DNA from: Magnolia sinica
Lineage: Eukaryota > Streptophyta > Magnoliopsida > Magnoliales > Magnoliaceae
Length of the DNA stretch: 64,000 nucleotides
Direction: 5' to 3'
Assembly (NCBI RefSeq): GCF_029962835.1
Contig: NC_080590.1
Span: 70,085,501 to 70,149,500 of the forward strand
Under the pieces are notes generated by a model, which searched no databases, was not told the DNA's origin, and worked only from the letters and a program-made list of their open reading frames with translations. The position numbers were made by a program, and so were the translations under genes. Position 1 is the stretch's first letter; the number at the start of each line of letters is the position of its first letter. Below, piece by piece: positions 16,458-64,000 of this stretch.

Positions 16458-18320
16458 TGAAAAGGTCAAGCTAAATGTCTTAGAGGGGAGGGAGGTGAAT
16501 AGGACAATGTCAAATTTAAAAATAAGCGCAGAAATAAAGACTTAATGAGCAGTTGATAGCACAATTGAAAGCAACCTCTAAAATCAAGTATGGAGATGTT
16601 GACACAAACTTAGTTCTAAGGACAACTTAACACCAAAAACCTTCGGTTTATGGAAGGACAACCTTACTAGAATGTGGGTGAGTATCAAAAACTCAAACTC
16701 AAATGGAGGTAAAAGAAATAAGAACTAATCTATTACAACATTCACCACACAATGCTTGAAAAATAAATATTACAACATTCACATCCACAAATACATCTCA
16801 CGATCTTATACCACAAAATGATAAAGAAATAAATCAAACACCCACCAAACACCTGAGAATTATAGTGGTTCGTGTGTTTACACCAACTGTCTGAAAACAG
16901 CCACACAACTACTCCACCCCTAATATCCACTCCCTCAGGATATTAGCTTTCACTATTCAAATAGGTTTTTCAAGGTTCACCTAAAACTTTCACAATTGTA
17001 TTTTAAGTGGGCTCACACAATCACAACCCCACACTCCAAGATTTTCTGGCTGATCTCAGAAAAAACTAAATGAGATTTTCTGGCTTATCTCATAAACCAA
17101 ACAAAATGAATTTACAGAAAAAGAAACACTTATCTGTATGAAGATTCTAAAGTAGCCTAGTAGAACTAACTTGATGACGACATAAATGTTCAAAGTTTAG
17201 TCCCACAAGTGTATAGGGTTCTAGGTCTAGATGATTTTTAATTTAAATCAACCTAGGCTAACTTAATTTGATTTCGATCTCAAGAAATGGTAAATCAAAT
17301 GTCCCTTTTCAAAATCAGATTGGAATAGAGATCTAAAATCAAATAACAAGAGCTACTTATAAAGAATCTACAATATGCAAAAAATAGCTTAGAATGAGCA
17401 CAAACTTATCTCAGAGTGATTGCTTAAAAATAATTAGAATTGAATAGAAAACTCTGAAATTTGAGTTCTATTTATACGTGAAAAATCTGTTCACTTGACT
17501 GACCTTAGTTCGCTTCGACTGGCCTTAGGTCCTAGAGATTTTCAAAAATTCTGGCACGATAAGATTTGATAAGTGCTCAACTGGACTTGTGGGTCCCACG
17601 ACAGGTCGAGTGGCCTGCTCGACTAGTCGTGGACTACACACGACTGGTCGAGTTGGGCTAAAATGTTTGTTGTAATTTGAGTTGAGCCTTACACGACCAG
17701 TCAAGCACTATTCACTCGACTGGTCGAGAAAATTCTAGGATTGGTCGAGGAGCAATAGAAAATTTCTAAAAATTTGTAACAAATCCTGGACTGGTCGAGA
17801 AAATTCTAGGACTGGTCGAGCCAGTGTATGGCTAGTCGAAAAAAAACCTATTATGCTATAAAATGACCGATACCAAGTACAAAATGAACGTAACATGCCC
17901 TAAGGTCAATCTAGGTCATTCATACCTTACTTGTGAGATAGAACATGTGAACCATCAAACTATCGATCACATCGACAACTTTAATTCTTGTGATATTCAA
18001 AGTTTGACCTCGACGTATCGAACTTAGTCTTCAATTAGGACTTGAGTTCTTGGACATTTTCGGTTACAGAACTTGAACCGCAATAATGAGATTGGGTTCT
18101 TGAAAGTTGAGTCTTCAACCAACACTTGAAACTCATATACTTTCTTCAACTTGAAGATCTCGGCAAGTTCGTCGTAGATATCAACAAGATTGATTCAGCA
18201 CGATCGTCGAAGATTCAAAGCAAATCAAAGTACAAGCTTGATACATAAAAGACATAAGCATGACATAAACTCGAATTGGTTTGACACACCAAAATTTGAC
18301 TAAACTTAAGGTTTCCAACA
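16458..18320 (-). repeat. 5' LTR of the minus-strand copia element (about 1.86 kb)
   Basis: On the minus strand it begins TGTTGGAAACC (18320) and ends ACCTTTTCA (16458). A box like CCTATTCACCTCCCTCCCC near the end is shared with the LTRs ending at 34947 and 49661. TATA box GTATAAATAG at 17468-17477. Just upstream in U3 (17490-17870) is a cluster of CGACTGGTCGAG-type words. The first 50 bases resemble the start of the solo LTR at 32948 (TCAAATTTTG(G/T)). Candidate target duplication TAGCA at 18321-18325; the partner is not in view. Confidence 0.75.
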
Positions 18321-22783: not shown

Positions 22784-25263
22784 GGAGGTGGGCACCACGT
22801 GGGACCCACCCACCATGGCAGCTGCTGGGCTGTTGTAACGTGGGGTGAAATCCACGCCGTTCATCTATATAGTAGGACCCACCACAGTTGTATGTGTTTC
22901 ATCTGCACTGTCCATCTAAACTATTTTTCATCCAAATTGTCCATCCACTTGGTAGAATCAGGGTCATCCATCTGCTGGACAGTCACCGCCCCACCATGAT
23001 GGACGTTTTCCATCCAAACCGTCCATCCATTTGGCAAGCTCATCTTAAGGCTTGGACTAAAAATTAAAAACATAAAATAAAATGAAGCTAATCCGATGAT
23101 CAAGTGGACCACACAGTACAAAGCAGTGAGGTGTTGAACAACTACCATTGAAACCCTTTTTGGGGTCACGGAAGTTTGGATCAATATGAAATTTATTTTT
23201 CCTCTTAGGTCAGGTCCATGCGACCCTATAAACAAATTGGATGGAAAATAACATTGTGGTGGGCCCTACCTTGTTGATGTGTTGTATTGCGGCCTGATTT
23301 AATGTAATTGAGGCCCACATGATGCGGCCCGATTTGATGTATTTTTGGCCCATTGAAGCGGCCCATTTGATGTATATTAGGCCCATTGGTGTGGCCCATA
23401 TGATGTGGCCCACTTGATGCATGTCGACCCATGGTGCAGCCCATATGATGTGGCCCATTTGATGCATGTTGACCTATTGGAGTAGCCCACATGATGCGGC
23501 CCACTTGATGAATATGAGGCCCATTGAGATGTATTTGAGGCCCATGGGTTGAGGCCCAATGTAATGTATATAAGGACCATGAGTGGGCCCAAAGAGATGT
23601 ATGTGAGGCCTTTGTGTGGGTCGAATGTGATGTATATGAGGCCCATTGCGATGTAAGACTCCACCATGATGTATGTAATGATGTGTGGGTTGAATGTGAT
23701 GTATATGAGGCCCATTGCGATGTAAGACTCCATCATGATGTATGTAATGATTATTATGGTGGCCATGCCTTAGGAGCAATGATGGTTTGACGTCTACATT
23801 ATAAGAGCAATGATGGTTAAATGTTCGCATTGTAACTCTCCCTAGGGCAAATTGTTAGGCCCATACTTGTGGTGTGTAGGCCGTCTAGGCCCATCTTTAT
23901 TATGAATAAAGTCCATCACCATATAACATGCTTAGTATAGCTCCATGATTCATGCTCATATGCATCATATGTATGCTTGATATGAGGAGTGACTGATCAT
24001 AGAATATGCCTACGGGCAAATTGTTTATGGGCTCTCTGATAGGCGGAGTTTCCCCACATGACCGCACAGTACGCGTAGGATTTCTACATGACTAATAGTG
24101 TGATTCATGCACTTCATATTTGTATGACATGATTAATGTATGCCCTAGCGACATTAGGACTGTGGCCTCCACAGGCACATCATGGATGACAGGATCAGAC
24201 AACAAAAATATTGTTACTAGCATCGGGGCGCCATAGATGTCCCTAGGTGAAAATTCCTAAACCCAATGATACCAGAGGATGACTCCAATGTCGAGACTGA
24301 GTGGATACGTGAGTGCACGAGGACTGAATACCAGGAGGCTGCGTCTCCCACTGTGTTATGGTCGGTTGGAAAGGGGTGTGGTCTTACCCACCCGAGGGTA
24401 GGGGGCATTGCTAGTTTGAGTATAACTAGCTCGTAAATGGGTCCGCTATCGACACACTAGATAGGTATTAGCAGACTATTGGCCAGGCAGATAGTGAGGT
24501 TTCTTACACTCACTTGGACTGCGCACATGAGAAAGGTGCAGTGTCATTTGGAGTGTAATAGACCCCGGTGATTGTCTAGCATGAGAACTGTACTGATATT
24601 TGATGCTCTAGCGATGAGTTGCATTGACATGTGGATTTGGATGAGGATTGGTGTGCTTGAGTTGCGTCTCGCATTGCTTGGCCTTGGTATGGCCGACATC
24701 ATTCACTCCTTGCATCGTATGGCCTTAATATGGCCAATAGCATTCATGCCTTGTATTACATAGCCTTGGTATGGCTGATTGCATTCATGGACTCATCAAT
24801 ATGACTCTGCTTTACTCTAATATTACATTCTGAGCACGCTCGTATTACGCACACACTTACACCAGTCTCTAAGCTTCTATAAGCTTATGCACGATTGATG
24901 CGTGCAGGTGACACTAGGATGCAGCCGTAGCTTAGTCGCAGCAGGAGTGTGCAGTCGAGCTTCAAGAGTTTTCATTATTATCATTATCTTGTATTTCCCT
25001 TCATACGCATTGTACTCAAAGTTTTTTGTCATAGTGGATTTTGTGATGGTGTTCTTGTGGTTATTGTTCGTGGGTTATGCTTATGATTATGCTTATTACA
25101 AATCAAAATCATGTTTGAAATCCTCCTTGTAGAATCCCAAGATCAGAACCTGGTGTATGGGTGCCAGGAACCGAGAATGGGGTACTACGGAGGTTATCGA
25201 TGTGGGATTCGGCGATCAGAAATTTTGTGAGCCTGGTTTTCGAGTTTAGGGCATGACAGTAAC
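21578..25263 (+). mobile_element. Solo LTR (Tekay-type) with near-perfect target duplication GTAAT/GTAAC
   Basis: LTR body 21583-25258 (3,676 bp): TGTAAGACCCGTATCC... to ...TTTAGGGCATGACA. Flanks are GTAAT (21578-21582) and GTAAC (25259-25263), one transition apart. No internal coding region. It contains a (TC)n run (22087-22113), a (TA)n run (about 22735-22783), a GGCCCA/GATGTAT minisatellite (23260-23740), half of a GTGGTCCAC hairpin element (about 23095-23205) and the AAGCTTCTATAAGCTT block (24871-24886). Its first 350 bp match 59265-59600 and the reverse of 54780-55122. Confidence 0.9.
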
Positions 25264-33030: not shown

Positions 33031-33099
<69 letters not shown>

Positions 33100-34952
33100 C
33101 AAGGCACTGCATCACATTGCTTCAAGTCAAGAACGAAGATCTACTTCAAGAAATGCAATGTCAAGTACATTGTCCACTTATGTAAGCTTCAAAGTTCAGA
33201 GTCTTTAAAGAGCTACATCAGAAGACAAGTTCTTGTTTAAGACTCAAGATAAAGTACAACTCAAGATGAAGTATAGCTCAAATTCAAGCTTTAGAAGATC
33301 TCAAATTCAAGTTACATCATGAGTCGAGATCTCAACCTTCATAATCTTCAAAGGTCAACCATCATCTGAAGAAATGAAGACTCAATGTCCATACTTCATA
33401 TTTAAGGTATGAATGACCTTAGATTGACCTTAGGGTAGGTCATTTTGTACACATAATTCAAATTGAAACATTTTATAAGTGTTTGGTCTGTTCTTAGACT
33501 AGTCCTGAACTTTGTTCGACCAGTCCTAGAACTAGCTCAACCAGTCTAAGAAATTCCGAGACCAGTCTTAAGTTTGTTGCATTTTTTTTAAATTTTTTAG
33601 TCCTCCATGACTAGTCCTAGACTCTGCTGGACCGGTCGTGTGAACAGTGCATGACTCATCCTTGACTAGGCCAGCAGCTAAGACTCAAACTCCAGTAATG
33701 AATTCTGGTTTCTCACGACCAGTCGTGGGCATGTCACGACCAATAGTGGAGGACTCACGATCGGTCGTGGATAGCCTTCGACCAGTCGTGCCATGGTTTT
33801 ATCCAATCACGCTCAAAATTTCAAAATGTTGTTGTACTACGACCAGTCGTAGTGTCCACAGGACCAGTCGTAGATGCGATTTCTTCAATTATAAATAGAG
33901 CACGATTTTTAGAGTTTGATATCTAATTCAAGTAAAATCATGGCATCACTCTGGGAGATAAGTTTGTGTTCTTTTTTAGCTACATTGTGCATATTTAATA
34001 TTCTCTTTTGTTAGCTTTTCATATTTGATTTTGTTTCTGCATTCCAATCTTATTTGAAAGAGGAATTGGGATATTCCACTTCTTGGAATCAAAATCAAAT
34101 AAAGCTAGCCCGACTTGATTTAATTCAAAATCAATTAGAACTTAAAACCATTTCAAAGTGAGTATTGGACATTGAACTTCTATATTCAAACTTCTACTCC
34201 AACTTGGTTCTTCCGGGGGGTAACAAAAGGAGAAATCCAGGTATTTTACATTTGTGTAAATTTCCTATATTTTGGTTTCTTTTGAGATTAAGCCAGAAAA
34301 ATCTCATTGTGTTGGTTATTTGAGGAGAGCCAAAAAACTCAGAGGTTGGGGTTTTTGAATTGTGTAAGTCCATTTGAAAGACACAAATGTGAGGGTTTTA
34401 GGTGAACCTGAGAAAAACCTATTTTTCATAATGAACGCTAATATCCCCTGTGTGAGGATATTAGGAGTGGAGTAGCAAGCTGTGTGGTTGTTGTTTAACA
34501 GTTGGTGTACACATAGGCGAACCACTATAATTCTTTGTGTCTTATGATTTGAATATTTGTTTAATTTCTTTATCCTTTATCATTCAAGTTTGTGGGATGT
34601 ATGTGTGGATGTGAATGTTGTAATATTTACATTTCAAGCATTGTGGGGAATGTTGTAATAGCTTAGAATTTCTTTCTTGCTATTTCCCTTATTTCCTTTA
34701 CAGTTTGAGATTTTATTTCTCTAATTGTTCTAGTAAGGTTGTCCTTGCCATAAACCCTTCGTTTTTATGGTGAAAGGTTGTCCTTAGAAAAACTAGTATT
34801 TGAGGTTGCTTTTCATTCTATATTGTGGATTTTTATCTTTCTTTTACTTGGCTATCTTATTGTTTTATTTTACTGTTAAAGTTTTAATTTGGCATAGTCC
34901 TATTCACCCCCCACCCCCCCTCTAGGACTCGTAGCTAGGCCTTTTCAGTCTC
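32943..34952 (+). mobile_element. Solo copia LTR with perfect target duplication GTCTC
   Basis: LTR body 32948-34947 (2,000 bp): TGTAAGTGCAAAGG... to ...GGCCTTTTCA. GTCTC flanks it on both sides (32943-32947, 34948-34952). A (TA)n run sits at 33033-33096, a cluster of ACGACCAGTCGTG-type words at 33480-33880, then TATA box TATAAATAG at 33890-33898. The CCTATTCACCCCCC box near 34899 is shared with the other copia LTRs. No internal region, hence a solo LTR. Confidence 0.93.
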
Positions 34953-44859: not shown

Positions 44860-46390
44860 TGGGCCTGTAGAAGGCAGCTCATGGCCCGTAATAATGAACA
44901 AGTGGCGTGCACACAATCACATACACATGGTGGGTCTCACACATCACAATTGGGCCTCGCACATACAAGGGGCTTCACACAATCACAATGGCCCTCATAT
45001 AATCACAATGGGTCTTGTACAATCACAGTGGGCCTCATATAATCACAATGGGCCTCATATAATCGCAATAGGCTCAAACAATCACACAATGGGTCCCATA
45101 CAATCACGATGAGCCTCATATAGTCACAATAGGCCTCATACAATCACAATGTTATGCTAACACATACTCAGTGTGTATACCAATCATAGTCGTAATCAAT
45201 AATCGGCCTATATATATAGCGGGGTTCATAAAAGGACAGCAGATCTAATCCATAATATGAGGATTGGTCCTCAACAGTGGATATACCAAACCTGATACCA
45301 CCGATCTTTCCACCTACGATGATGATGTATTCCCCTCATATCAAGGATGGGCCCAGATGGCCTACTCATATCAAGAATGGGACTAAGAAAAAGGAGTGAG
45401 CTTCCTTGCCCATTCCATCACGTAGCAATTTGGGCTTCCTAAAGGCTTAATAAGCATAAGATGGGCCACATTCCCTATGGAAGGCTCGGTATGAACACAA
45501 GATGGGCTCCAAGGCTTGGGTGGTCATACAGGGTATGGTGGAAAGCATCATTATCAAATGGGGGCCTAACGGATTGGGATAGCCAAATCAAGGGAAAGAT
45601 GGGTAATATAATCATCAATGAGAGGCCTAACGATTTGGGTTAGCCCATTAAGGGGAGATGAGAATGGGCCTAACAACAGGCCCTAGGGAGAGTTACAATA
45701 TGGACATCTAACCATCATTACTCATACACCGTGGACATTAAACCATCATTGCTCCTAAAGTATGGCCCATTTAATATCAAATAAGAACATGGATGGGCAT
45801 CATAAACATCATTACATACATCTTAGTGGAATCACATATCACAATGGGCCTCATATACATCACCCTGAGCCTCACACAAGGGCTTATATACATTGCATTG
45901 GGCCTCACTCATGGGCCTCATATAGATCACATTGGGCCTCATACTTGGGCCTTAAATACATCACAATGGGCCGCATCACATGTGCCTAATACACATTACA
46001 ATGGGCTACATCACATGGGCCTAATGGGACAATCACTATGGGTCACATACAATCGCAATGGGTCTCATACAATCACAATGGGCCTCATCACGTAGGCCTC
46101 AAATACATCACACTAGGCCTCATCATATGAGCCTCACATATCTCAATGGCCACATACAATCTCAATGGGCCTCATACAATCATAATGGGCCTTATACAAT
46201 CACAATGGGCCTTACACAAGAGTCCCATACATCACAATGGGCCTTACACAAGGGTCTCATACATCAAGTGGACCACATCACATGGGCCGTAACAATGGGC
46301 CTCATGTACATCAAGATGGGCCGCAACAATGGGCCTCATATAATCATAATGGGCCGCATCACATGAGCCATAACAATGAGCCCACCGACC
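44860..46390 (-). repeat. GGCCCAT-GATGTAT minisatellite-like array in LTR A
   Basis: Dozens of degenerate units of about 18-30 bp, on plus CATACAATCACAATGGGCCT and variants (ATACATCACAATGGGCC). The same word family occurs on the plus strand at 23260-23740 and around the palindrome centre (56940-57440). Confidence 0.8.
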
Positions 46391-47324: not shown

Positions 47325-49661
47325 TGAAAGTTCCTTAGTTTGTCAATTAGCGTGAGCGTTAAGTCAGCTAGACAGAAGAGCCCCATAAGAAGATTGATCA
47401 AGTGTCTACCTCAACTAGATGCGTGCCCGAACTCGTCACAGGTAAATCTTAGCCTTACATCACATGTCCCAAAACACTAGGTAATTAAAATCCTTAAAAT
47501 TGGATAGAACACCCTAAGGGATTATGGTTAGAAAAAAAAATTCGAACTCAGAAAAATCTTTAAGTTTTTTGCCTTTGTTGATTTATCGACAAGTAGTTCG
47601 ATGAAATCGAACCCTGTTGTCGATGTCCTCAAAGTTCACTCGATATTATCGAAATGAGGACATAAGATGTCCAACAACCACAAAGATCTCTGGATAGAAT
47701 TATCGATGTATCGACAGACGGTTTGATATCATCAAAATTTGAATCTCGAGTCCATCGAATAGACTCGATAAAATCGACATCAGGTCAGTTGTGTCCAAAG
47801 TTCTGCTAAGGCAAATCATGTAAAGCTCAATATATCGAAGAGCACCTCGATATCCTCAAAATTCAAATCTCGATGATATCGGAAGTCCTTCGATGATATC
47901 AGATTGGGATGCATTTCTATCCAGCAAGTTTCTTAGAATGTTGTTTCTTGGATCGAGAGTCACTCGATAAAATTGATATTCAAATATCGATTATATCGAG
48001 GCATGGTCGATGTCATCGAAAGAGGGCAGAAACTGTCCAGCAAGCTTATAGGAAAATTTCTTGGAATTATCGATGAATCAACACTGCCCTCGATATCATC
48101 GATATTTAAATTTCGATGATATCGAGTGATGCTCGATCATATCATTTTCCTGAAAATCTTCAAAGGTAAGTCTCTCACAATTTCAAATGTCGAGGAATTG
48201 AACCTCGTGTCGATGAAATCGGAGTTTGAAATCTGATGACATCGACGCATGTTCGATTTCCTCGACCAGCTGGCAAAAGGTTACAAAAGCGTTTGACATT
48301 TGAGTTCGTATCATCGAGCGGCCGGTCGATGCTATCGAGAGTATACTCTCGATGATATCGACCCTGTTCAATGATATCAAACTCTGTCAAAAATATGACC
48401 GTTTTATATCCGTTGGAACCTTTTGCCTATTTAATGAAAGCTTGCCCTTGGTTGTTAGACAGAGAAAATAGAGAGTGCTTTTGTGTGTTTAAACCCTAGA
48501 TCATATGCCTTAAGCCTTTTATCTCATGGGAGTTCATCCTCTAATCCACCCTCATCACTGACATTCAATAAAGTGGATTGGGGAATGAACTTCTGCATTC
48601 AAGGATCCTACAGCTACCACCTTAATGGTAAATCATTAGGTTGGGATGCCTTGAATGTATAGATGATTGAAATCGCTTTATCTCCCTTATAGGAAAACAT
48701 TTAATAGAGTAGGATTCCATCATAACCTTTACCCAACCCGTCGCCATGTATTGGTACATCTTCTAAGTTGCGGTTCAAGGAAGCAAAACATTCTTCATCA
48801 ACAAAGGAGGAGATCTTCGACAACGCGCTAAACGGGGCTCATCTACTTATCTGTAAGTCATTAGAGTCCAGAGGACCCTTGTGATCATTCCTTCTGTAGG
48901 ATTGGGTCTATGGTGTTTCTCACCCCTTGCAAGTCCTCATAAGAGGCCTCCGGCGGGATTATACGTGGGGGTGCTTTGTGCTGACCCTTGATCTGTGGAG
49001 AGCATAAACTAGTTAGAGGTGAACCTGTTTAAAACCTCCGGTTAGAGGTGAACCTGTTGTGCAACCTCTGTTAGGTTCCTTGTGTGGATCCTTGGCAAGT
49101 TGGGCCTAATAGTCGGGGGCTGTGTGTTGACCCTTGCTCATGGGAGCATAAACTGTGTCGTGTAGACATGTTGTGTTGTGTAGGTTGTACTGGTTAGAGG
49201 TGAACCTGATTCAAAACCTCCAGTTTGAGGTAAACCTATTGTGAAACCTCCTTTAGTGAGATCCGGTACACTCAAGGGTTGAGTGCGTCCACCGAAAGTG
49301 GAGTAGACAAGTAGTCGAACCACTATAAAAATGATTGTGTTTGAGATTGCTATTATCTTCCATTGCTTATGTGATTTCCTTAAATGCCTTCATATTTGAT
49401 CACATCTCACACACAGTCACATCTATCATAAACTATATTTGCATCTTATTTATATTTCAATTAGTTTTATGATTGGATCCTCTATTTGGCTTGGAAGCTA
49501 TTAGAGTTACTCTGAAGAAATTCTGATGCATGCATTTTTACTCAGGATTAGAATGAGAAGATTTTAAATAATCATAAAATATTAAAAAGTCCTATTCACC
49601 CCCCTCTAGGACATATTGGCATATTCCCACTTCAACTAAAGTGGTCATTACCGCAATTTCA
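47325..49661 (+). repeat. 5' LTR of the TR-GAG element (2,337 bp)
   Basis: Starts TGAAAGTTCCTTAG, ends CCGCAATTTCA. 47580-48390 is a dense array of TCGATATCATCGA / TCGATGATATCGA words. Possible TATA-type CCTATTTAATG at 48426. Near 49000-49250 there are three direct copies of GGTTAGAGGTGAACCTG. The CCTATTCACCCCCCTCTAGG box (49588-49608) is shared with other copia LTRs here. Confidence 0.85.
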
Positions 49662-49663
49662 AT

Positions 49664-49675
49664 TGGTATCAGAGC
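49664..49675 (+). promoter_or_regulatory. Primer-binding site (initiator tRNA-Met)
   Basis: TGGTATCAGAGC two bases after the LTR end. Confidence 0.9.
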
Positions 49676-49731
49676 AGGTCTCTCTTAAGGGCTTCACCAC
49701 CTAGAGAGTGATCTTGAGTGAAGTTGGTAAT

Positions 49732-51300
49732 ATGGCTAAAGAAGAGGGCTCATTGGTCACTAGACCTCCAGTATTTGATGGATCAAATTATGCATACTGG
49801 AAGGCTAGAATGCATTACTTTCTGAGATCTTTGGATCATGATGTTTAGGACATTATTGAAAGAGGATGCGTACCACCAACCGAACAAATAGTACTTGAGA
49901 ATGGCACAACTATCATTAAACCAAAAGCGAAAGAAAAGTGGATAGCATTCGATAAAGAAAACTAAACTATTGAGGCAAAAGCAATGAATGCTACCTACTG
50001 TGCTATGTCCCAAGACATTTTCAATCAAATCAGTATGTGTGGGACAGCCAAAGAAGCATGGGATTTGTTGGAAATAACCCATGAAGGAACAAGCACTGTG
50101 AAGAGATCCAAACTGTAACTCTTAACATCACAGTTTGAAAGTCTCATAATGGAAGAACATGAGACCTTCATGGAGTTTTTCACAAAACTGAACATCATTT
50201 ACAACTCCATGGGTGGATTGGGTGAGAAAGTTCCAGTCCCAAAAATCTGTAGGAAAATACTAAGATCATTACCAGAACGGTTTAACCCTAAAGTAACTAC
50301 CATTAAAGAGTGTAAAAATATAGATGAAATGAAAGTAGAAGAACTAGTAGGTTCCCTATAAACATTTGAACTACACTTCAAACAAACTCCCAAATCCAAA
50401 ACTACTGTCCTTAAAACCTCAAAGAATACAACAACTAAGGATATTGAAAGTGAAAGAGAAAATGAAGATGATGAAGTGGCCCTGTTAGCACAACGGTTCA
50501 TAAAGTTCTTTCAGAAAAATCGTGGCCGTCCATTTAAAGGAAGACAGATGAACAACAAACATTTCACAGGTAAATCTGGTAAAAAGTCCAAGGAACCACA
50601 ATGTTATACCTGTCAAAAGTTTGGACATCTGTCTACTGAATGCCCAAATGGAAAAACCAAAGGAAAGGCAATGGCAACCACATGGGATGATACGGAAGAG
50701 TTAAATTCAGAATCTAGTGACTCAGAGAGCGATGGAGACCAGAAATCTCTAAAATTTCTTATGGTCTCCACTGCCTCAACCATTCCCACTGAAACCGAGA
50801 ATGTTAAAGAACCACAAGCCACTGAATCATTTCCATCGGATAATGAGGAGACTGAAAAGGAAGAAGAAGAACAGAACAAATTACAGGATGCTTACAATCA
50901 ACTCTACATTCATAGCATCAACATCCTTAAAAGACTTGGAATATCTGAAAACAAAAAGAAATTGCTGCAAAAAGATCTGGATAAAACTTTGGAAATTAAT
51001 ACACATCTAATTAATGATTTACTGCAATATCATTCAGATAATGATAGATTAGAAGGAATCAATACCTTCCTTAAATCTGAGTCTGACAAACTAAACAAAC
51101 AGGTTGAGCTATTAAAAGATAAAAACATGCTCCTTCAAAATGAAAATCACACACTATTGTTTGAGTTAGAAGAATCCAAATGCACCATCTTCCTCCACTC
51201 CTCTGCCATAGTGCTGACATCCGGGAACTATCACATACACTCTTCTCTTATATCCGCGTATGGGCATTGGTATCTTTTTGAATGCCCTACGATCCCATGA
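49732..51300 (+). pseudogene. gag: Copia-type gag of the TR-GAG element, four in-frame stops
   Basis: One frame runs from ATG 49732 (MAKEEGSLVTRPPVFDGSNY) to 51300 without frameshift but with stops at 49846 (TAG), 49963 (TAA), 50116 (TAA) and 50359 (TAA). At least three stand where related gags have Trp or Gln, so they are G:C-to-A:T transitions. Order: DUF4219-like N-terminus (AYWKARM), UBN2-like middle (ETFMEFFTKLNIIYNSMGGL, LRSLPERFNPKVTTIKE, KVEELVGSL), basic linker (RGRPFKGRQ), intact CCHC knuckle CYTCQKFGHLSTEC (50602-50643), acidic stretch (SDNEETEKEEEEQNKL) and a Leu/Lys/Glu coiled coil (about 50930-51180). The last ~40 residues (after LEESKCTIF) leave the copia pattern, marking where pol was lost. 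The 274-codon part from 50476 is open and is duplicated inverted at 63905-63081. Confidence 0.85.
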
Positions 51301-52067
51301 GTGTATGTGATAGATTACTAACCTGCATAGTCTGACAGTTTTTTGTTTTTAGATATGTATATGCCCATGGATGGGCTAGATACTTGTAGCTGTTTTTGGG
51401 TGCCCATGGATGGGCTTGATTTTTTTAAGGTTTGGGATGAATGATTATACTACTGCCAATCTTGGGCTGTGTGTGTGTGTATGTGTGTGTATTTAGATAT
51501 TTTGGGCCATGGTTGTCTCATATATCTTACTGTCATTTTAGTTCGGTTTACTTACTCATCTGCTTTGAATGCTGCTATCATCTGTGAACCTTATCCCTGT
51601 TTTCTTATTTTCATTTGGTTTATCTCAACTATGGTGCTTGCTCTCTATACTCCTACTATTAATCATCACAGGTTTTCTTTGAGCTGATATGCTTTCCAGG
51701 AATGTTCTTTTATATCTACTCTGCTTATGCCCTGCATTTTGGTTCTCCTAACTGTTTCAACTTCAGTCAATATCCACTATTACATTATCCTTTGCCAATG
51801 ACTGACGAAAAGGGGGATAACAAATCCACCCCAAAGAAAAATCGTGTGTATCTATTTGCGGATGGTGGTGCAGGTGTTAGGGGGAGCAGCTGCAAGGAGA
51901 CAGGGGTAGATTATTATTAGGGGGAGCAACTACTGAATGTGTGTGTGTGCTCACTAGATAACCTTGTAAAATTGTGTAAAGTTCATGTACACACAATTTA
52001 GGGTGTTAGTCTAGACGTTCAACTAGGGTGTTTCGGTGTTTTGTTACGTAATTGACAAAGGGGGAGA
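51301..52067 (+). other. Non-coding 3' internal region and polypurine tract of the TR-GAG element
   Basis: Contains a TG repeat (51468-51491), repeated CCCATGGATGGGCT words (51364 and 51402), several AGGGGGA tracts (51809, 51880, 51921) and the terminal tract ACAAAGGGGGAGAT (52056-52068) before the 3' LTR. No pol sequence. Confidence 0.7.
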
Positions 52068-52068
52068 T

Positions 52069-53969
52069 TGAAAGTGCCCCGATTTGTCAATTAGTGTGAG
52101 CGTTAAGTCAGCTAGACAGAAAAGCCCCATAGGAAGATTAATCAAGTGTCTGCCTCAACTGGATGTGTACCTGAACTCGTCATAGGTAAATCTTAGCCTC
52201 ACATCCCATGTCCCAAAACACTCGGTAATTAAAATCCTTAAAATTGGATAGAACACCCTAAGGGATTATGGTTAGAAAACTTTTTTCCAACTTAGAAAAA
52301 TCTCTAAGTTTTCTGCCTTTGTTGATTTATCGACAAGTAGTTCGATGAAATCGAACCCTATTGTCGATGTCCTCGAAGCTCACTCGATATTATTGAAATA
52401 AGGACATAACATGTCCAACAACCACAAAGATCTTTGGATGGAATTATCGATGTATCGACAGACGGTATGATATCATCGAAATTTGAATCTCAAGTCCATC
52501 GAATAGACTTGATAAAATTGACATCAGGTCTGTTGTGTCCAAAGTTTTGTTAAGGCAAATCATGTAAAGCTCGATATATCGAAGAGCTCCTCGATATCCT
52601 CGGAATTCAAATCTCGATGATATCGAAAGTCCTTTGATGATATCGGATTGGGACGCATTTCTATCCAGCAAGTTTCTCAGGATGTTTTTTCTTGGATCGA
52701 GAGTCACTCAATAAAATTAATATTCAAATATTGATCATATCGAGGCATGGTTGATGTCATCAAAAGAGGACCGAAACTGTTCAGCAAGCTTATAGGAAAA
52801 TTCCTTGGAATTATCGATGAATCGACACTATCCTCGATATCATCGATATTCAAATTTCAATGATATCGAGTGATGCTCGATCATATCATTTTCCTGAAAA
52901 TCTTCAAAGGTAAGTCTCTCACAATTTCATATGTCGAGGAATTGAACCTCGTGTCGATGAAATCGGATTTTAAAATCTGATGACATCGACGCATGTTCGA
53001 TTTCCTCGACCAGCTGGCAAAAGGTTATAAAAGTGTTTGACATTTGAGTTCATATCATCGAGCGGCCAGTCGTTGCTATCGAGAGTATACTCTTGATGAT
53101 ATCGACCCTGTTCGATGATATCAACCTCTGTAAAAAATATGACCGTTTTATATCCGTTAGAACCTTTTGCCTATTTAATGAAAGCTTGCCCTTGGTTGTT
53201 GGACAGAGAAAATAAAGAGTGCTTTTGTGTGTTTAAACCCTAAATCATATACCCTAAGCCTTTTCTCTCATGGGAGTTCGTCTTCCAATCCACCCTCATC
53301 ATTGACATTCAATAGAGTGGATTGAGGAATGAACTTCCGCATTCAAGGATCCTGTAGCTACCACCTTAATGGCAAATCATTAGGTTGGGATGCCTTGAAT
53401 GTATAGATGATTGAAATCATTCTATCTCCCTTATAGGAAAACATTTAATAGAGTAGGATTCCATCATAACCTTGACCTAACCCGTCGTCATGTATTGGTA
53501 CATCTTCTGAGTTGTGGTTCAAGGAAGTAGAAGATTCTTCATCAACAAAGGAGGAGATCTTCGACAACGTGCTGAACGGGGCTCATCTACTTATCTGTAA
53601 GTCATTAGAGTCCAGAGGACCCTTGTGATCATTCCTTCTGTAGGATTGGGTCTAAGGTGTTTCTCACCCCTTGCAAGTCCTCATAGGAGGCCTCCGACGA
53701 GAGTGTACATGGGGGTGCTTTGTGTTGACCCTTGCTCTGTGGAGAGCATAAAATGGTTAGAGGTGAACCTATTTAATACCTCCGATTAGAGGTGAACCTG
53801 TCGTGAAACCTCTGTTAGGTTCCTTGTGTGGATCATTGGCCAGCTGGGCCTAAAAGCCGGGTGCTATGTGTTGACCTTTACTCATGGGAGCATAAACTGT
53901 GTCGTGTAGACACGTTGTGTCAACCTAAGTGTAGGTTGTACTGGTTAGGGGTGAACCTGATTTAAAACC
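52069..53969 (+). repeat. 3' LTR of the TR-GAG element, lacking its last ~443 bp
   Basis: Starts TGAAAGTGCCCCGA after the polypurine tract and is closely similar to 47325-49218, then stops at ...GATTTAAAACC. The segment corresponding to 49219-49661 of the 5' LTR is missing, and LTR A sequence (ATACATCATGGTGG) follows at once. The inverted copy has the same junction at 60410/60411, so the loss came before the inverted duplication. Confidence 0.8.
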
Positions 53970-55122
53970 ATACATCATGGTGGGGTCCACATGGGTGGGC
54001 CACCAAGCCCCGAATCAAGCTTATCTTGTATTTTCCCCCATCATCTAAGCTTACCCAAAAATGGGTAGTAAGGTGGGACCTGCAAGTGAACAGTCTAGAT
54101 CATCATATGTGTATCATCAGGTGGGCCATACATTAAGAGTGAGAGAGAGAGAGAGGTGGAGGGCTCCACCACTATGAGCCCTCCTAGGATTACAATGCAT
54201 ACATCAAGATGGGTCTCATTATATGTGGGCACGCTAATAAAAAAAATGTAAGGTCTAGATAATCCTTTTCACAATGGGAAAATAAACATCATGATGGGGT
54301 CCGTGGAGAATGACCCCATCATGCAATGAATTATAAATCATGGTGGGCTATCGAAAAACACCTAGGGTCCAAAGTGAGATCCATACCATCGATCGATAGG
54401 CCCCACATGGACCATCATCAAAATATAATCTAATCTTATAAAAACACCCACCGATTTCACTCCTTCTTGGCTTCTTAGATTCCTAAACTCCTTGGCTTTC
54501 CCTTTGATGGAAGTTGATGAAGGTTGGATGACTAAGATGGGAGATTGGGTGGTAGGAAGTGGGCCACACTAGGCTCCTCTCTTTTCTCTCCTTAGCTTGG
54601 ACATCCACACTCTTAGGTTGCTTGGGAGTGAAGAGAGAAATGAGAGAGAGAGAGAGAGTGTGTGTGTGTGTGTGTGTGATAGATGGGAGAGAGGGATGAT
54701 GATGGGTGTAAGGAAGGGATGGGTGGAGAGAGAGAGAGTTGACTTTGGATGAGAGAGGTATGGGTTGTCATGCCTTGTTGGTAAGAGAGGGATGGGTGTT
54801 GTACTTGATTAATTGATAGGATTGATTTGATAGATTGTAGAGATTCTCTTCTCAGGATTTGCAACGCGTGGCGTTTGCTCGAAATAAACGCTGGCCCACA
54901 ACTCCTGGCCTGGCTATCGCATTGGCGCGCGAGACGCGGTATTGGAACTGCGATGACGGTGCGGTCGTAAGGGTATAAGTCTCGGGTCGAGCCAACTCAG
55001 ATCTATGGGATACGACTTAGTGTCGTACGCAAACGTCATTTACAGGTCGCAGGTTGTCGAAATTCGACGGGGAGGATCGCGAGACTCTATGGAATGGTAC
55101 GGACTAAGATATGGGCCTTACA
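53970..55122 (-). repeat. 5' part of LTR A, resumed after the TR-GAG insertion
   Basis: Minus strand begins TGTAAGGCCCATATC at 55122 and matches the first kilobase of the LTR at 21583: hallmarks are a GCAAATCCTGAGAAGAGAAT stretch, a CA/TC microsatellite (54640-54680) and GGGCCACAC near 54567. Confidence 0.8.
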
Positions 55123-55150
55123 CCTAGGGGTCGAGATGTTCGATTGGTAA
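55123..55150 (-). pseudogene. 28-bp piece of the Tat-like gag between two LTRs
   Basis: Lies between LTR A (ends 55122) and LTR B (starts 55151). Its minus-strand translation (NIPTPR) stays in frame with the gag that resumes at 43196. Mirrored at 59237-59264. Confidence 0.5.
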
Positions 55151-57193
55151 TGTCATGCTCCAAACTCGAAAATCGGATTCACGAGAATCTCGATTGTCGA
55201 ATCCGATGTCGACAGCCTCCGTAATACCCCATTCTCGGCTCCTGGTGCCCATATGCCAGGTTCCAATCCTAGGATCCTATAAGGAGGATTTTCCAACGTA
55301 CATTTATCTCATAAGAAGCATAACCACAAGTTTACCCAAATCACAAAGGTAACATCATCATCACATATCCACTAATATAAACATTTGAATACAATGCTAA
55401 AAGGGAAATACATATGTCAAAATCAAAGCTCCAAAAGTTAGCTACATGCTCCAACCTCCACGCTGCTGCAACCTAACATTACCTTCACGCATCTATCATG
55501 CATAAGCTTATAGAAAGCTTAGAGGGTGGTGTAAGTGTGTGCATAAGGTAAGTGCCAAGTATTCAATATAATGCCATACTCATACAATATCGAAAATACT
55601 GGTAATATCATGAATCATATGATATTAGAGTAAGCAGAACTACTGACAAGTCCATAAAGATATCATCAACCTTATCCAGGATATGTGATGAAAAGACATA
55701 GTAAGCCAATGTCATATACTGAGAAAGTAATGTAAATCGCTATGTAATGCGGAAACATAATAAACCAGATATCAGATATCGAGGATGCAATGCAATATAC
55801 AATTCGGAAGAGCTACGAATACCATCAACCTCATCTAGGTCATATAAATGCAGAAACATAGCAACCCAGAATGCCATATGCCGAGGATGTAATGCAATAT
55901 GCAATATGTAGTGCGAATGAAATGACCAAGCTGCAGTGTGAATTCAGGATGGTAATAAGTGGTATCATAGGCTATGAGGCCTATCACAAAGTACTTCTAT
56001 CCAAACCAGTCACATACCTAAATTTGGATAGATAGACTCAATGTGGTAAGATCCTGAGCTCAGGTTAGTCCCGTACCCCAACCGAAATCCTGGCCATTGT
56101 GAAAGTATACATAACGATTAGTTGCGCACCACCAATCCGAGTGGATAGTGAATGAATGAATGAATATAATGATGAGTATGCAACTCCTGCTCCATAAAGC
56201 AGTACTGTACATCTCTGGGATCTTCACCGGGGTCTAGTACACTCCAAGATGGCTACTGCCCCAGCTGGCTATGTAGCCCAGTGAGTGTAAAAGACCTCAT
56301 TACCCACTTACCAGTAGTATACCAATGTCTACTCGGCTCATCGATAGCGGACCCATTTGGGAGCTGGTCAAACTCAGCCTAGTTTATAGCCCCCTCACTC
56401 AGGCGGATAAGGCACACTCCCTCCTAACCGACCATGACACAGTGGGGGACACAACCTACTAGTATTCGACACTCGGGCGCTCATTTTATCCACTCAGTAT
56501 AGACGTTGGGGCGTCTCCTAGCCTCGGAGGTTTATGGACTTTCACCCATGGACACCCAAAGTACCCAAATGCTCGAACCAAACATTTTCGGTGTCCCATC
56601 TGGCCATCCATGACATGCCTGTGGAGGTCACAACCCTTATGTCGCTAGGGCGTACAGGAATCACAATCACACAATGCAATATGCATGAGTCATGTAGTCC
56701 AACCATGCATCAATCCTATGCATACCTACGCTCATGTGGGATAACTCCACCTATCAGGGAGTCCCATAAACCACCTACCCAATGACATATGCAATGGTCA
56801 ACCACATCACATAACAAACATGTAGATGATGCGTATGGGCGTGTATCATGATGCTATGTTGTCACATACTCATAATCGGTATCAATAACTGACATTGACA
56901 ATCAACCTCGACAATGTGGACATTTAACTAACATTGCCCCCAAGGAATGACCCACATAGAGCTTAACATATACTGGACCCATGGCCTCACACAAGGGCCA
57001 AATATACAACACCATGGGCCTCACTCAAGAGCTTAATACACATCACGATGGGCCTTTCACATGGGCCTAACATACATCATCATGGGCTCCATCGCCTAGC
57101 CCTTAAATGCATCACAATGGGCCTCATCACATAGGCCTCATATACATCACGTTGGGCCTTAAACACGAGCTGAATACACATCACAACAGGCCT
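55151..57193 (-). mobile_element. Tekay-type LTR 'B', 3' portion, cut by the palindrome centre
   Basis: TGTCATGCTCCAAACTCG at 55151 is the complement of a ...GGAGCATGACA LTR end. It is closely related to LTR A (compare 43330-43440 with 55280-55385). AAGCTT...ATAAGCTT block at about 55505-55520; GGCCCA words from 56940. The 5' portion is absent: at 57194 the sequence reverses. Confidence 0.8.
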
Positions 57194-57194
57194 G

Positions 57195-59236
57195 AGGCCT
57201 GTTGTGATGTGTATTCAGCTCGTGTTTAAGGCCCAACATGATGTATATGAGGCCTATGTGATGAGGCCCATTGTGATGCATTTGAGGGCTAGGCAATGGA
57301 ACTCATGATGATGTATGTTAGGCCCATGTGAAAAGCCCATCGTGATGTGTATTAAGCTCTTGAGTGAGGCCCATGGTATTGTATATTTGGCCCTTGTGTG
57401 AGGCCATGGGTCCAGTATATGTTAAGCTCTATGTGGGTCATTCCTTGGGAGCAATGTTAGTTAAATGTCCACATTGTCGAGGTTGATTGTCAATGCCAGT
57501 TATTGATACCGATTATGAGTATGTGACAGCATAGCATCATGATACACGCCCATACGCATCATCTACATGTTTGTTATGTGATGTAGTTGACCATTGCATA
57601 TGTCATTGGGTAAGTGGTTTATGGGACTCCTTAATAGGTGGAGTTATCCCACATGAGCGTAGGTATGCATAGGATTGATGCATGGTTGGACTACATGACT
57701 CATGCATATTGCATTATGTGATTGTGATTACTGTACGCTCTAGCGACATAAGGGTTGTGACCTCCACAGGCATGTCGTGGATGGCCAGATTGGACACCGA
57801 AAATATTTGGTTCGAGCATTTGGGTACTTTGGGTGTCCATGGGTGAAAGTCCATAAACCTCCGAGGCTAGGAGACGCCCCAATGTCTACACTGAGTGGAT
57901 AAAATGAGCGTCCGAGTGCCGAATACTAGTAGGTTACGTCTCCCACTGTGTCATGGTCGGTTGGGAGGGAGTGTGCCTTATCCGCCTGAGTGAGGGGGCT
58001 ATAAACTAGGCTGAGTTTGACCAGCTCCCAAATGGGTCCACAATCGATGAGCCGAGTAGACATTGGTATACTACTGGCAAGTGGGTAATGAGGTCTTTTA
58101 CACTCACTGGGCTACATAGCCAGCTGGGGCAGTAGCCATCTTGGAGTGTACTAGACCCCGGTGAAGATCCCAGAGATGTACAGTACTGCTTTGTAGAGTA
58201 GGAGTTGCATACTCATCATTATATTCATTCATTCATTCACAATCCACTCGGACTGGTGGTGTGCAACTAATCGTTATGTATACATTCACAATGGCCAGGA
58301 TTTCGGTTGGGGTGCGCGACTAACCTGAGCTCAGGATCTTACCACATTGAGTCTATCTATCCAAATTTAGGTATGGGACTGGTTTGGATAGAAGTACTTT
58401 GTGATAGGCCTCATAGCCTAGGATTCCACGTATTACCATCCTGAAGTCACACTGCAGCTTAGTCATTTCATTCGCACTACATATTGCATATTGCATTACA
58501 TTCTCGGCATATGGCATTCTGGGTTGCTATGTTTCTGATTTATATGACCTAGATGAGGTTGATGGTATTCGTAGCTCTTCCGAATTATATATTGCATTGC
58601 ATCCTTGATATCTGATATCTGGTTCGTTATGTTTCCGCATTACATAGCGATTTACATTACTTTCTCAGTATACGACATTGGCTTACTATGTCTTTTCATC
58701 ACATATCCTGGATAAGGTTGATGATATCTTTATGGACTTGTCAGTAGTTCTGCTTACTCTGATATCATATGATTCATGATATTACCAGTATTTTCGATAT
58801 TGTATGAGTATGGCATTATATTGAATACTTGGCACTTACCTTATGCACACACTTACACCACCCTCTAAGCTTTCTATAAGCTTATGCACGATAGATGCGT
58901 GCAGGTGATGTTAGGTTGCAGCAGCGTGGAGGTTGGAGCATGTAGCTAACTTTTGGAGCTTTAATTTTAACATATGTATTTCCCTTTTAGCATTGTATTC
59001 AAATGTTTATATTAGTGGATATGTGATGATGATGTTACCTTTGTGATTTGGGTAAACTTATGGTTATGCTTCTTATGAGATAAATGTACGTTGGAAAATC
59101 CTCCTTGTAGGATCCTAGGATTGGAACCTAGCATATGGGCACCGGGAGCCGAGAATGGGGTATTACGGAGGCCGTCGACATCGGATTCGACAATCGGGAT
59201 TCTCGTGAATCCGATTTCCGAGTTTGGAGCATGACA
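57195..59236 (+). mobile_element. LTR B, right palindrome arm (3' portion of a Tekay-type LTR)
   Basis: Inverted copy of 55151-57193, ending GGAGCATGACA. Contains TCTAAGCTTTCTATAAGC at 58863-58880 followed by the conserved TTATGCACGATAGATGCG block. Confidence 0.85.
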
Positions 59237-59264
59237 TTACCAATCGAACATCCCGACCCCTAGG
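59237..59264 (+). pseudogene. 28-bp Tat-like gag piece, right arm
   Basis: Mirror of 55123-55150, between LTR B end and LTR A start. Confidence 0.5.
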
Positions 59265-60410
59265 TGTAAGGCCCATATCTTAGTCCGTACCATTCCATAG
59301 GGTCTTGTGATCCTCCCCATCGAATTTTGGCAACCTGTGACCTATAAATGACGTTTGCGTATGACACTAAGTCGTATCCCATAGATCTGAGTCGGCTCGA
59401 CCCGAGACTTATACCCTTACGACCGCACCGTCGTCACAATTCAATAGCGCGTCTCGCACGCCAATGCGATAACCAGGCCAGGAGTTGTGGGCCCGCATTT
59501 ATTTTAAGAAAACGCCACACGTTGCAAATCCTGAGAAGAGAATCTTTACAATCTATCAAATCAATCCTATCAATTAATCAAGTACAACACCCATCCCTCT
59601 CTTATCAACAAGGCATGACAACCCATACCTCTCTCATCCAAAGTCAACTCTCTCTCTCTCTCCACCCATCCCTTCCTTACACCCATCATCATCCCTCTCT
59701 CCCATCCATTACACACACACACACTCTCTCTCTCTCTCTCATTTCTCTCTTCACTCCCAAGCAACCTAAGAGTGTGGATGTCCAAGCTAAGGAGAGAAAA
59801 GAGAGGAGCCTAGTGTGGCCCACTTCCTACCACCCAATCTCCCATCTTAGTCATCCAACCTTCATCAACTTCCATCAAAGGGAAAGCCAAGGAGTTTAGG
59901 AATCTAAGAAGCCAAGAAGGAGTGAAATCGGTGGGTGTTTTTATAAGATTAGATTGTATTTTGATGATGGTCCATGTGGGACCTATCGATCGATGGTATG
60001 GATCTCACTTTGGACCCTAGGTGTTTTTCGATAGCCCACCATGATTTATAATTCATTGCATGATGGGGTCATTCTCCATGGACCCCATCATGATGTTTAT
60101 TTTTCCATTGTGAAAAGGATCATTTAGACCTTACATTTTTTTTATTAGCGTGCCCACATATAATGAGACCCATCTTGATATATGCATTGTAATCCTAGGA
60201 GGGCTCATAGTGGCGGAGCCCTCCACCTCTCTCTCTCTCACTCTTAATGTATGGCCCACCTGATGATACACATATGATGATCTAGACTGTTTGCTTGCGG
60301 GACCCATCTTACTACCCATTTTTGGGTAAGTTTGGATGATGGTGGAAAATACAAGATAAGCTTGATCCGGGGCTGGGTGGCCCACCCATGTGGATCCCAC
60401 CGTGATGTAT
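59265..60410 (+). mobile_element. LTR A 5' part, right palindrome arm
   Basis: Begins TGTAAGGCCCATATC; inverted copy of 53970-55122, about 7 bp shorter. A frame at 59348-59899 is LTR sequence, not a gene. Confidence 0.85.
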
Positions 60411-63400
60411 GGTTTTAAATCAGGTTCACCCCTAACCAGTACAACCTACACTTAGGTTGACACAACGTGTCTACACGACACAATTTATGCTCCCATGAGT
60501 AAAGGTCAACACATAACACCCAGCTTTTAGGCCCAACTGGCCAATGATCCACACAAGGAACCTAACAGAGGTTTCACGACAGGTTCACCTCTAATCGGAG
60601 GTATTAAATAGGTTCACCTCTAACCAGTTTATGCTCTCCACACAGCAAGGGTCAACACAAAGCACCCCCATGCACACTCTCGTCGGAGGCCTCCTATGAG
60701 GACTTGCAATGGGGTGAGAAACACCTTAGACCCAATCCTACAGAAGGAATGATCACAAGGGTCCTTTAGACTCTAATGACTTACAGCTAAGTAGATGAGC
60801 CCCGTTCAGCACGTTGTCGAAGATCTCCTCCTTTGTTGATGAAGAATCTTCTGCTTCCTTAAACAACAACTCAGAAGATGTACCAATACATGACGACGGG
60901 TTGGGTCAAGGTTATGATGGAATCCTACTCTATTAAATGTTTTCCTATAAGGGAGATAGAGCGATTTTAATCATCTATACATTCAAGGCATCCCAGCCTA
61001 ATGATTTGCCATTAAGGTGGTAGCTGCAGGATCCTTGAATACGGAAGTTCATTCCCCAATCCACTCTATTGAATGTCAATGATGAGGGTGGATTGGAAGA
61101 TGAACTCCTATGAGAGAAAAGGCTTAGGGTATATGATCTAGGGTTTAAACACACAAAAGCACTCTCTATTTTCTCTGTCCAACAACCAAGGGCAAGCTTT
61201 CGTTAAATAGGCAAAAGGTTCCAACGGATATAAAACGGTCATATTTTTTACAGAGGTTGATATCATCGAACAGGGTCGATATCATCAAGAGTATACTCTC
61301 GATAGCATCGATTGGCCGCTCGATGATACGAACTCAAATGTCAAACACTTTTGTCACCTTTTGCCAGCTAGTCGAGGAAATCGAACATGCGTCGATGTCA
61401 TCAGATTTTAAAATCCGATTTCATCGACACGAGGTTCAATTCCTCGACATTTGAAATTGTGAGAGACTTACCTTTGAAGATTTTCATGAAAATGATATGA
61501 TCGAGCATCACTCGATATCATTGAAATTTGAATATCGATGATATCGAGGGCAGTGTCAATTCATCGATAATTCCAAGGAATTTTCCTATAAGCTTGCTGA
61601 ACAGTTTCGGTCCTCTTTTGATGACATCAACCATGCCTCGATATGATCGATATGTGAATATCAATTTTATTGAGTGACTCTCGATCCAAGAAAAAACATC
61701 CTGAGAAACTTGCTGGATAGAAATGCGTCCCAATCCGATATCATCAAAGGACTTTCGATATCATCGAGATTTGAATTCCGAGGATATCGAGGAGCTCTTC
61801 GATATATCAAGCTTTACATGATTTGCCTTAACAAAACTTTGGACACAACAGACCTGATGACAAATTATCAAGTCTATTCGATGGACTTGAGATTCAAATT
61901 TCGATGATATCATACCGCTTGTTGATACATCGATAATTCCATCCAAAGATCTTTGTGGTTGCTGGACATGTTATGTCCTTATTTCAATAATATCGAGTGA
62001 GCTTCGAGGACATCGACAATAGGGTTCGATTTCATCGAACTACTTGTCGATAAATCGACAAAGGAAAAAAACTTAGAGATTTTTCTAAGTTGGAAAAAAG
62101 TTTTCTAACCATAATCCCTTAGGGTGTTCTATCCAATTTTAAGGATTTTAATTACCTAGTGTTTTGGGACATGGGATGTGAGGCTAAGATTTACCTATGA
62201 CAAGTTCAGGCACACATCTAGTTGAGGCAGACACTTGATTAATCTTCCTATGGGGCTTTTCTGTCTAGCTGACTTAATGCTCTCACTAATTGACAAATCG
62301 GGGCACTTTCAATCTCCCCCTTTGTCAATTACGTAACAAAACACCGAAACACCCTAGTTGAACGTCTAGACTAACACCCTAAATTGTGTGTACATGAACT
62401 TTACACAATTTTACAAGGTTATCTAGTGAGCACACACACACATTCAGTAGTTGCTCCCCCTAATAATAATCTACCCCTGTCTCCTTGCAGCTGCTCCCCC
62501 TAACACCTGCACCACCATCCGCAAACAGATACACAATTTTTCTTTGGGGTGGATTTGTTATCCCCCTTTTCGTCAGTCATTGGCAAAGGATAATGTAATA
62601 GTGGATATTGACTGAAGTTGAAACAATTAGGAGAACCAAAATGCAGGGCATAAGCAGAGTAGATATAAAAGAACATTCCTGGAAAGCATATCAGCTCAAA
62701 GAAAACCTGTGATGATTAATAGTAGGAGTATAGAGAGCAAGCACCATAGTTGAGATAAACCAAATGAAAATAAGAAAATAGGGATAAGGTTCACAGATGA
62801 TAGCAGCATTCAAAGCAGATGAGTAAGTAAACCGAACTAAAATGACAGTAAGATATATGAGATAGCCATGGCCCAAAATATCCAAATACACACACACACA
62901 CACACACACACACAGCCCAAGATTGGCAGTAGTATAATCATTCATCCCAAACCTTAAAAAAATCAAGCCCATCCATGGGCACCCAAAAACTGCTACAAGT
63001 ATCTAGCCCATCCATGGGCATATACATATCTAAAAAAAAAAACTGTCAGACTATGCAGGTTAGTAATCTATCACATACACTCATGGGATCGTAGGGCATT
63101 TAAAAAGATACCAATGCCCATACGCAGAGATAAGAGAAGAGTGTATGTGATAGTTCCCGGATGTTAGCACTATGGCAGAGGAGTGGAGGAAGACGGTGCA
63201 TTTGGATTCTTCTAACTCAAACAAGAGTGTGTGATTTTCATTTTGAAGGAGCATGTTTTTATCTTTTAATAGCTCAACCTGTTTGTTTAGTTTGTCAGAC
63301 TCAGATTTAAGGAAGGTATTGATTCTTTCTAATCTATCATTATCTGAATGATATTGCAGTAAATCATTAATTAGATGTGTATTAATTTCCAAAGTTTTAT

Positions 63401-64000
63401 TTAGATCTTTTTGCAGCAATTCCTTTTTGTTTTCAGATATTCCAAGTCTTTTAAGGATGTTGATGCTATGAATGTAGAGTTGATTGAAAGCATTCTGTAA
63501 TTTGTTCTGTTCTTCTTCTTCCTTTTCAGTCTCCTCATTATCCGATGGAAATGATTCAGTGGCTTGTGGTTCTTTAACATTCTCGGTTTCAGTGGGAATG
63601 GTTGAGGCAGTGGAGACCATAAGAATTTTCAGAGATTTCTGGTCTCCATCACTCTCTGAGTCACTAGATTCTGAATTTAACTCTTCTGTATCATCCCATG
63701 TGGTTGCCATTGCCTTTCCTGTGGTTTTTCCATTTAGGCATTCAGTAGACAGATGTCCAAACTTTTGACAGGTATAACATTGTGGTTCCTTGGACTTTTT
63801 ACCAGATTTACCTGTGAAATGTTTGTTGTTCATCTGTCTTCCTTTAAATGGACGGCCACGATTTTTCTGAAAGAACTTTATGAACCGTTGTGCTAACAGG
63901 GCCACTTCCTCATCTTCATTTTCTCTTTCACTTTCAATGTCCTTAGTTGTTGTATTCTTTGAGGTTTTAAGGACAGTAGTTTTGGATTTGGGAGTTTGTT
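60411..64000 (-). mobile_element. TR-GAG element, right palindrome arm, incomplete at the window end
   Basis: Minus strand: shortened 3' LTR 62311-60411, polypurine tract about 62312-62323, non-coding internal region, gag from 63081 to beyond 64000. The TCGAT-type word array is at 61255-62060. The 5' LTR, if included in the duplication, would be right of the window. Confidence 0.85.
63081..64000 (-). pseudogene. gag: Gag of the TR-GAG element, right-arm copy, open through the window edge
   Basis: Stop at 63081-63083 (minus). The frame is open to the window end at 64000, more than 300 codons. The equivalent of the left-arm stop at 50359 would lie just beyond the window. The zinc knuckle is intact at about 63738-63779. 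Relative to the left copy I see ten residue changes over the 274 residues (among them a Pro to Leu just after the knuckle and Lys to Glu in the coiled coil), most explained by single transitions. Whether the N-terminal half shares the four stops of the left copy cannot be seen. It was part of a non-autonomous element; there is no sign of a cellular role. Confidence 0.8.

Follow-up and report, generated by a model that had tools for sequence, protein, structure and literature searches.

Structure of the palindrome

The locus raises the question whether a palindrome that folds around a single base within retrotransposon sequences is a true feature of the Magnolia sinica chromosome or a product of reading and assembly, and how and when it could have arisen. 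The whole stretch of DNA that was analysed, 64,000 nucleotides in length, is called the window here and all positions refer to it.

An earlier note on this DNA had described inverted arms around a one-base centre at 57194, which is borne out by the alignment. In a blastn comparison the left arm (50381-57193, plus strand) matches the reverse complement of the right arm (57195-64000, minus strand) from end to end with 96.8% identity over 6820 columns, with 197 mismatches and 11 gap openings. The global MAFFT alignment gives 198 mismatches in 6800 columns (158 transitions and 40 transversions) and 10 gap runs, but it counts the centre base against itself as one transversion, and the real number is 197 (158 and 39) in 6799 columns. 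The divergence of 2.9% agrees with the 2-3% given by the earlier note. Its statement that nearly all differences are transitions was too strong, since these account for 80% (158 of 197). Different microsatellite lengths, also mentioned there, were found as GT-type gaps of 4 and 6 bases at 51467 and 54658.

With two long reverse-complementary arms and next to no spacer the locus is a long palindrome, of which at least 13.6 kb are visible; its outer limits lie beyond the window, and it stops at 64000 because the window stops there. To the left and right of the single base at 57194 the pairing is perfect for 43 bp. In five composition-shuffled windows perfect arms (spacers of 0 or 1) reached at most 9, and the second-longest perfect palindrome of the window under the same spacers is an AT microsatellite, an (AT)n run at 33031-33098 with 30-bp arms. 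A self-comparison of the window with megablast (minus strand, E 1e-20) returned only the palindrome, the AT repeat and, for each of the two LTRs in the palindrome, a single relative. The search with a smaller word size added weaker relatives, none of which is both long and near 97% identity. An inverted pair of old repeats with 73% identity is located at 16614-17487 and 33878-34789.

Retrotransposon sequences within the arms

The outer part of the left arm belongs to a Copia-type element of the gag-only (TR-GAG-like) kind. Its 5' LTR (47325-49663, plus strand) was recognized by its similarity to the 3' LTR and by the motif directly after it at 49664, which we take to be the primer-binding site. 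This LTR lies outside the visible palindrome and can be used as an outgroup; between 47339 and 49218 it is 92.5% identical to 52083-53969. The internal region (49664-52068, plus strand), which is within the palindrome from 50381 on, contains remains of gag with matches to Retrotran_gag_2 (PF14223, 50119-50358) and to a zinc knuckle (zf-CCHC, 50362-51297). A zinc-knuckle frame of 274 codons is open in the left arm (50476-51300, plus strand) as well as in the right arm (63081-63905, minus strand). The two copies differ at 18 of 822 bases (8 silent, 10 replacing), and of the 310 C to T or G to A substitutions that this frame allows, 105 would be silent. The protein search with this frame gave no match at E 0.001 among 623 candidates. 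Another open Copia-type gag frame (PF14223), which belongs to a different element, is found at 15495-16040 on the minus strand.

Pfam scans of three stop-free internal pieces (50119-50358, 50362-51297 and 51663-51917) revealed no pol, and the internal region of 2.4 kb is too small for gag and pol together, therefore the element is assigned to the TR-GAG type. TR-GAG elements are defined by LTRs and a gag without pol, and by a short internal region. The element described here likewise combines LTRs, gag and a short internal region without detectable pol, as judged from the 2.4-kb length and the three scanned pieces; it differs from them in its truncated 3' LTR. The left copy of the 3' LTR (52069-53969, plus strand), identified by similarity to the 5' LTR, carries a TATA-like box at 53172 and lacks the last approximately 445 bases of the 5' LTR. 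Besides itself, this missing tail has only matches of at most 31 bp in the window. The right copy (60411-62311, minus strand), placed by the arm alignment, retains the TATA-like box near 61209. At 53211 an AATAAA is present in the LTR of the left arm; one of its A residues corresponds to G in the 5' LTR and in the right arm.

Next to the 3' LTR follows a segment between two LTRs (53970-55141, plus strand; right copy 59246-60410), delimited by the arm alignment. The earlier note had labelled it a gag piece, which could not be confirmed, since two stop-free pieces, one per arm (54616-54996 on the minus strand and 59348-59896 on the plus strand), have no Pfam match.

The innermost part of each arm is the beginning of a second LTR, which belongs to family B (relative at 43197) and is cut by the palindrome centre within a minisatellite. 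The left copy (55142-57193, plus strand) was found by self-comparison, and the right copy (57195-59245, minus strand) by self-comparison and arm alignment. It is 88.9% identical to its relative at 43197 over 359 columns and then 76% identical over 1.2 kb. The minisatellite at the centre is rich in GGCC, with 9 occurrences in 244 bp compared to 248 across the 64-kb window. Paired GGCC motifs 0-6 bases apart occur at 10 places in the window, and of these the central pair alone falls within a minisatellite (four stretches counted). The second LTR and its relatives carry minisatellites with units of approximately 20-35 bp containing GGCC (23288-23766, 44931-46380 and 56979-57184). One 69-bp minisatellite unit is present in duplicate at 23613-23751, with 97% identity.

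As proposed in the earlier note, the arms run across several older element junctions. At 52068, 53970 and 55142 they are identical in 78, 77 and 78 of 80 columns, respectively, and the junctions as well as older sequence changes are shared by both arms, which is the picture expected for one event spanning all of them.

Differences between the arms

The 158 transitions between the arms fall into 48 at CG, 34 at CHG and 76 at CHH, while 650 CG, 674 CHG and 4344 CHH cytosines are available on both arms and strands. Per site class there are 52 differences at 374 CG sites, 43 at 375 CHG, 90 at 2170 CHH and 13 at 3881 A/T sites, the centre base being included; since each site was classed by the arm that carries C or G there, the A/T class is free of transitions by construction and the fair comparison is that of the three cytosine classes. 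Methylated plant repeats gain changes in this CG- and CHG-led ranking through deamination. The concentration of arm differences at CG and CHG resembles that of such repeats and suggests, as far as can be judged from the bases, that the region was methylated.

The changes were polarised with two outgroups. Against the upstream 5' LTR (1897 columns) 120 changes are common to both arms, 24 are found only in the left and 33 only in the right arm, and no position has three states. Against the relative of the second LTR (1620 columns) the corresponding numbers are 306, 17 and 29, with 9 three-way positions. The private changes number 103, of which 60 turn C into T or G into A and 21 run in the opposite direction. 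The transitions have no strand bias (76 versus 82, p 0.69). Taking both polarisations together, the right arm has more private changes than the left (62 versus 41, p 0.048), an excess that we count against the explanation preferred below.

Origin of the palindrome

We consider it highly probable that the palindrome really exists as an inverted duplication, lies in a methylated plant region rich in retrotransposons, and was formed by fold-back or by fusion of sister ends and resolved later. The structure, its symmetry, the shared junctions, the order of events and the mutation pattern are direct observations; from them we infer the methylation, the fold-back or fusion, the later resolution and the age. 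In the proposed course of events a gag-only Copia-type element would have inserted first, and a second LTR element would then have come to adjoin it. Within the minisatellite of the second LTR a break or a stalled fork may have given rise to a fold-back, or a fusion may have taken place between two sister ends with breaks at an identical base. The strand would then have been copied back along itself, which would leave a mirror image with a one-base centre, and its far end would have been rejoined to the chromosome by a later event beyond the window. Afterwards the arms would have decayed separately, chiefly by C to T changes and without clear conversion between them. Symmetry down to one base implies that the arms would derive from a single molecule or from a pair of sisters with a common break site, and would therefore have been identical at the beginning.

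The one-base centre fits hairpin-primed fold-back, template switching at a fork and fusion of sister ends alike. The mechanisms listed in the earlier note are thus all compatible with the locus, and its narrowing to a single one is beyond what this window permits. The centre can be drawn as a hairpin whose stem has 4 bp and whose loop has 3 nt. Because any mirror centre pairs with itself, such a drawing is compatible with hairpin priming but not probative, and we discounted it as evidence. In yeast, fold-back inversions start from hairpin stems down to 4 bp, with median loops of 4 nt in mre11 and 3 nt in sae2 mutants (5.5 and 5.0 if each site is counted once), whereas with Mre11 and Sae2 intact the median loop is 36 nt and short-loop fold-backs are suppressed (PMC7467729). 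The tiny-loop route is therefore less expected in a normal cell. Breakage and fusion of sister chromatids would give the same product with a near-zero spacer and would avoid the short-loop hairpin. Nothing decisive speaks against it, as the sub-mechanisms leave identical sequence here, and within the reading as a real palindrome we assign it a substantial minority share, the remainder going to hairpin-primed fold-back or a fork template switch.

If the palindrome were not real, the contig could have followed one haplotype to 57194 and returned reversed along the other. For M. sinica, heterozygosity values of 1.21% and 1.29% have been reported (PMC10999834), and for M. biondii a value of 0.73% (PMC7917104). 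These values are under the 3% between the arms, yet within a few fold of it and near enough for alleles in methylated repeats, which may vary more. Such a join demands, however, that two homologues were joined chimerically at precisely the same base. If instead a single molecule had folded into an artefact read, both arms would be expected to show one haplotype, and polishing would bring them to the same consensus. Moreover, the window contains no N, and the differences nearest to the centre are found 44, 90, 101, 107 and 109 bp out, so that they have their full density from 44 bp outward and no shared read or consensus made the centre uniform. Given the one-base centre and the pattern of the arms we regard a haplotype join as unlikely.

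Even less probable, and in our view very improbable, is a fold-back read (template followed by its complement) or a read with a missed adapter that was built into the contig. Such reads do produce centre-perfect palindromes. The earlier note had argued against this origin from the divergence of the arms, and its case becomes stronger with the present data. There are 197 mismatches but only 10 gap runs, the arms decay according to cytosine context, and private changes are present on both arms in a tree-like pattern. Miscalls at methylated cytosines would be one-sided, in contrast to the balanced strands reported above, and the onset of differences at 44 bp points in the same direction. A literature search on nanopore fold-back reads giving such palindromes found no paper.

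Two independent insertions in opposite orientation have a negligible probability and were rejected, since, although other copies of both LTR families occur in the window, the three common junctions and the 120 common changes relative to the upstream LTR contradict them and show instead that a pre-existing mosaic was duplicated, as the earlier note had held for an already nested locus.

Order of events, age and conversion

The Kimura two-parameter (K2P) distance between the arms is 0.030 over 6800 columns, while the LTRs of the two arms are separated from the 5' LTR by 0.081 and 0.087. The duplication is therefore much younger than the insertion of the retrotransposon. At substitution rates between 1.3e-8 and 1.5e-9 per site and year the arms would be 1.1 to 9.9 million years old; with any conversion between the arms this age becomes a minimum.

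Palindromes which are maintained by conversion have arms more than 99% alike or long identical tracts. Here the arms are 97% identical and the longest identical run is 242 bp, compared to a simulated mean maximum of 201 (P 0.15). The spacing variance of the differences is likewise not exceptional (P 0.09). Recent arm-to-arm conversion is thus unsupported by the identical-run and spacing tests. The outermost 1.7 kb contain 28 differences where 42.9 are expected, and this low divergence could reflect some conversion.

A possible hairpin transcript

In each 3' LTR the TATA-like box (at 53172 on the left, near 61209 on the right) points toward the centre, therefore transcription from either could produce a hairpin with a stem of approximately 4 kb. 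Such a transcript is a prediction from the sequence. On the left, five AATAAA signals separate the box from the centre, and the matching stretch on the right contains three, which we count against such a transcript.

As a tentative and rather doubtful extension, a palindrome that spans 13.6 kb or more and has a spacer of one base may have persisted for at least 1 million years in a plant germ line, with its centre kept and without conversion, and its inward promoters could make it a natural source of hairpin siRNAs against both retrotransposon families. If the persistence holds, silenced plant heterochromatin would shelter palindrome centres from hairpin cutting.

Comparison with known palindromes

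As a rearrangement the locus is of a known kind, i.e. a long inverted duplication; unusual are the tight, undecayed centre and the absence of clear conversion between the arms. Long palindromes with a perfect centre are regarded as short-lived owing to hairpin cutting, and one that is aged but intact would allow their stability in plant heterochromatin to be tested in nature. It offers a datable candidate fold-back event together with a candidate source of hairpin siRNAs. In addition, the cytosine-context decay polarised on a neighbouring LTR provides a simple way to separate a real palindrome from a read artefact.

The fold-back inversions of yeast are likewise mirror duplications with a tiny centre, and stem and loop sizes of their short-loop class can be drawn here. 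The Magnolia palindrome, by contrast, occurs naturally inside a plant contig and is old and decayed. The short-loop class of yeast comes mainly from mre11 or sae2 mutants (PMC7467729), and the secondary rearrangement described there is not seen in this window.

Mu killer of maize, a plant inverted duplication that feeds siRNAs, is also an inverted duplicate of transposon sequence, with a proposed hairpin of approximately 4 kb (PMC3440606). The palindrome described here differs by its age, its divergence of 3% and the five AATAAA between left box and centre.

Large inverted arms are also shared with the palindromes of the willow W and the mammalian X, and those of willow contain LTR elements as well. 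The arms of these palindromes are more than 99% alike (in willow over 20-kb stretches) and undergo conversion, and the spacer of willow W.P1 is 2.6 kb (PMC8981503, PMC7023750); here the spacer is one base, the identity 97% and no clear conversion is seen. Among the literature matches listed there was no survey of near-spacerless long plant palindromes, which is not to claim their absence from print.

Outside the palindrome, the window also has coding remains of retroelements. At 3132-3788 an open frame encodes a retroviral-type aspartyl protease (RVP_2), whose best seven matches, among the 120 listed of 201 hits in 420 candidates, are all Magnolia sinica proteins, the top one with 67% identity.
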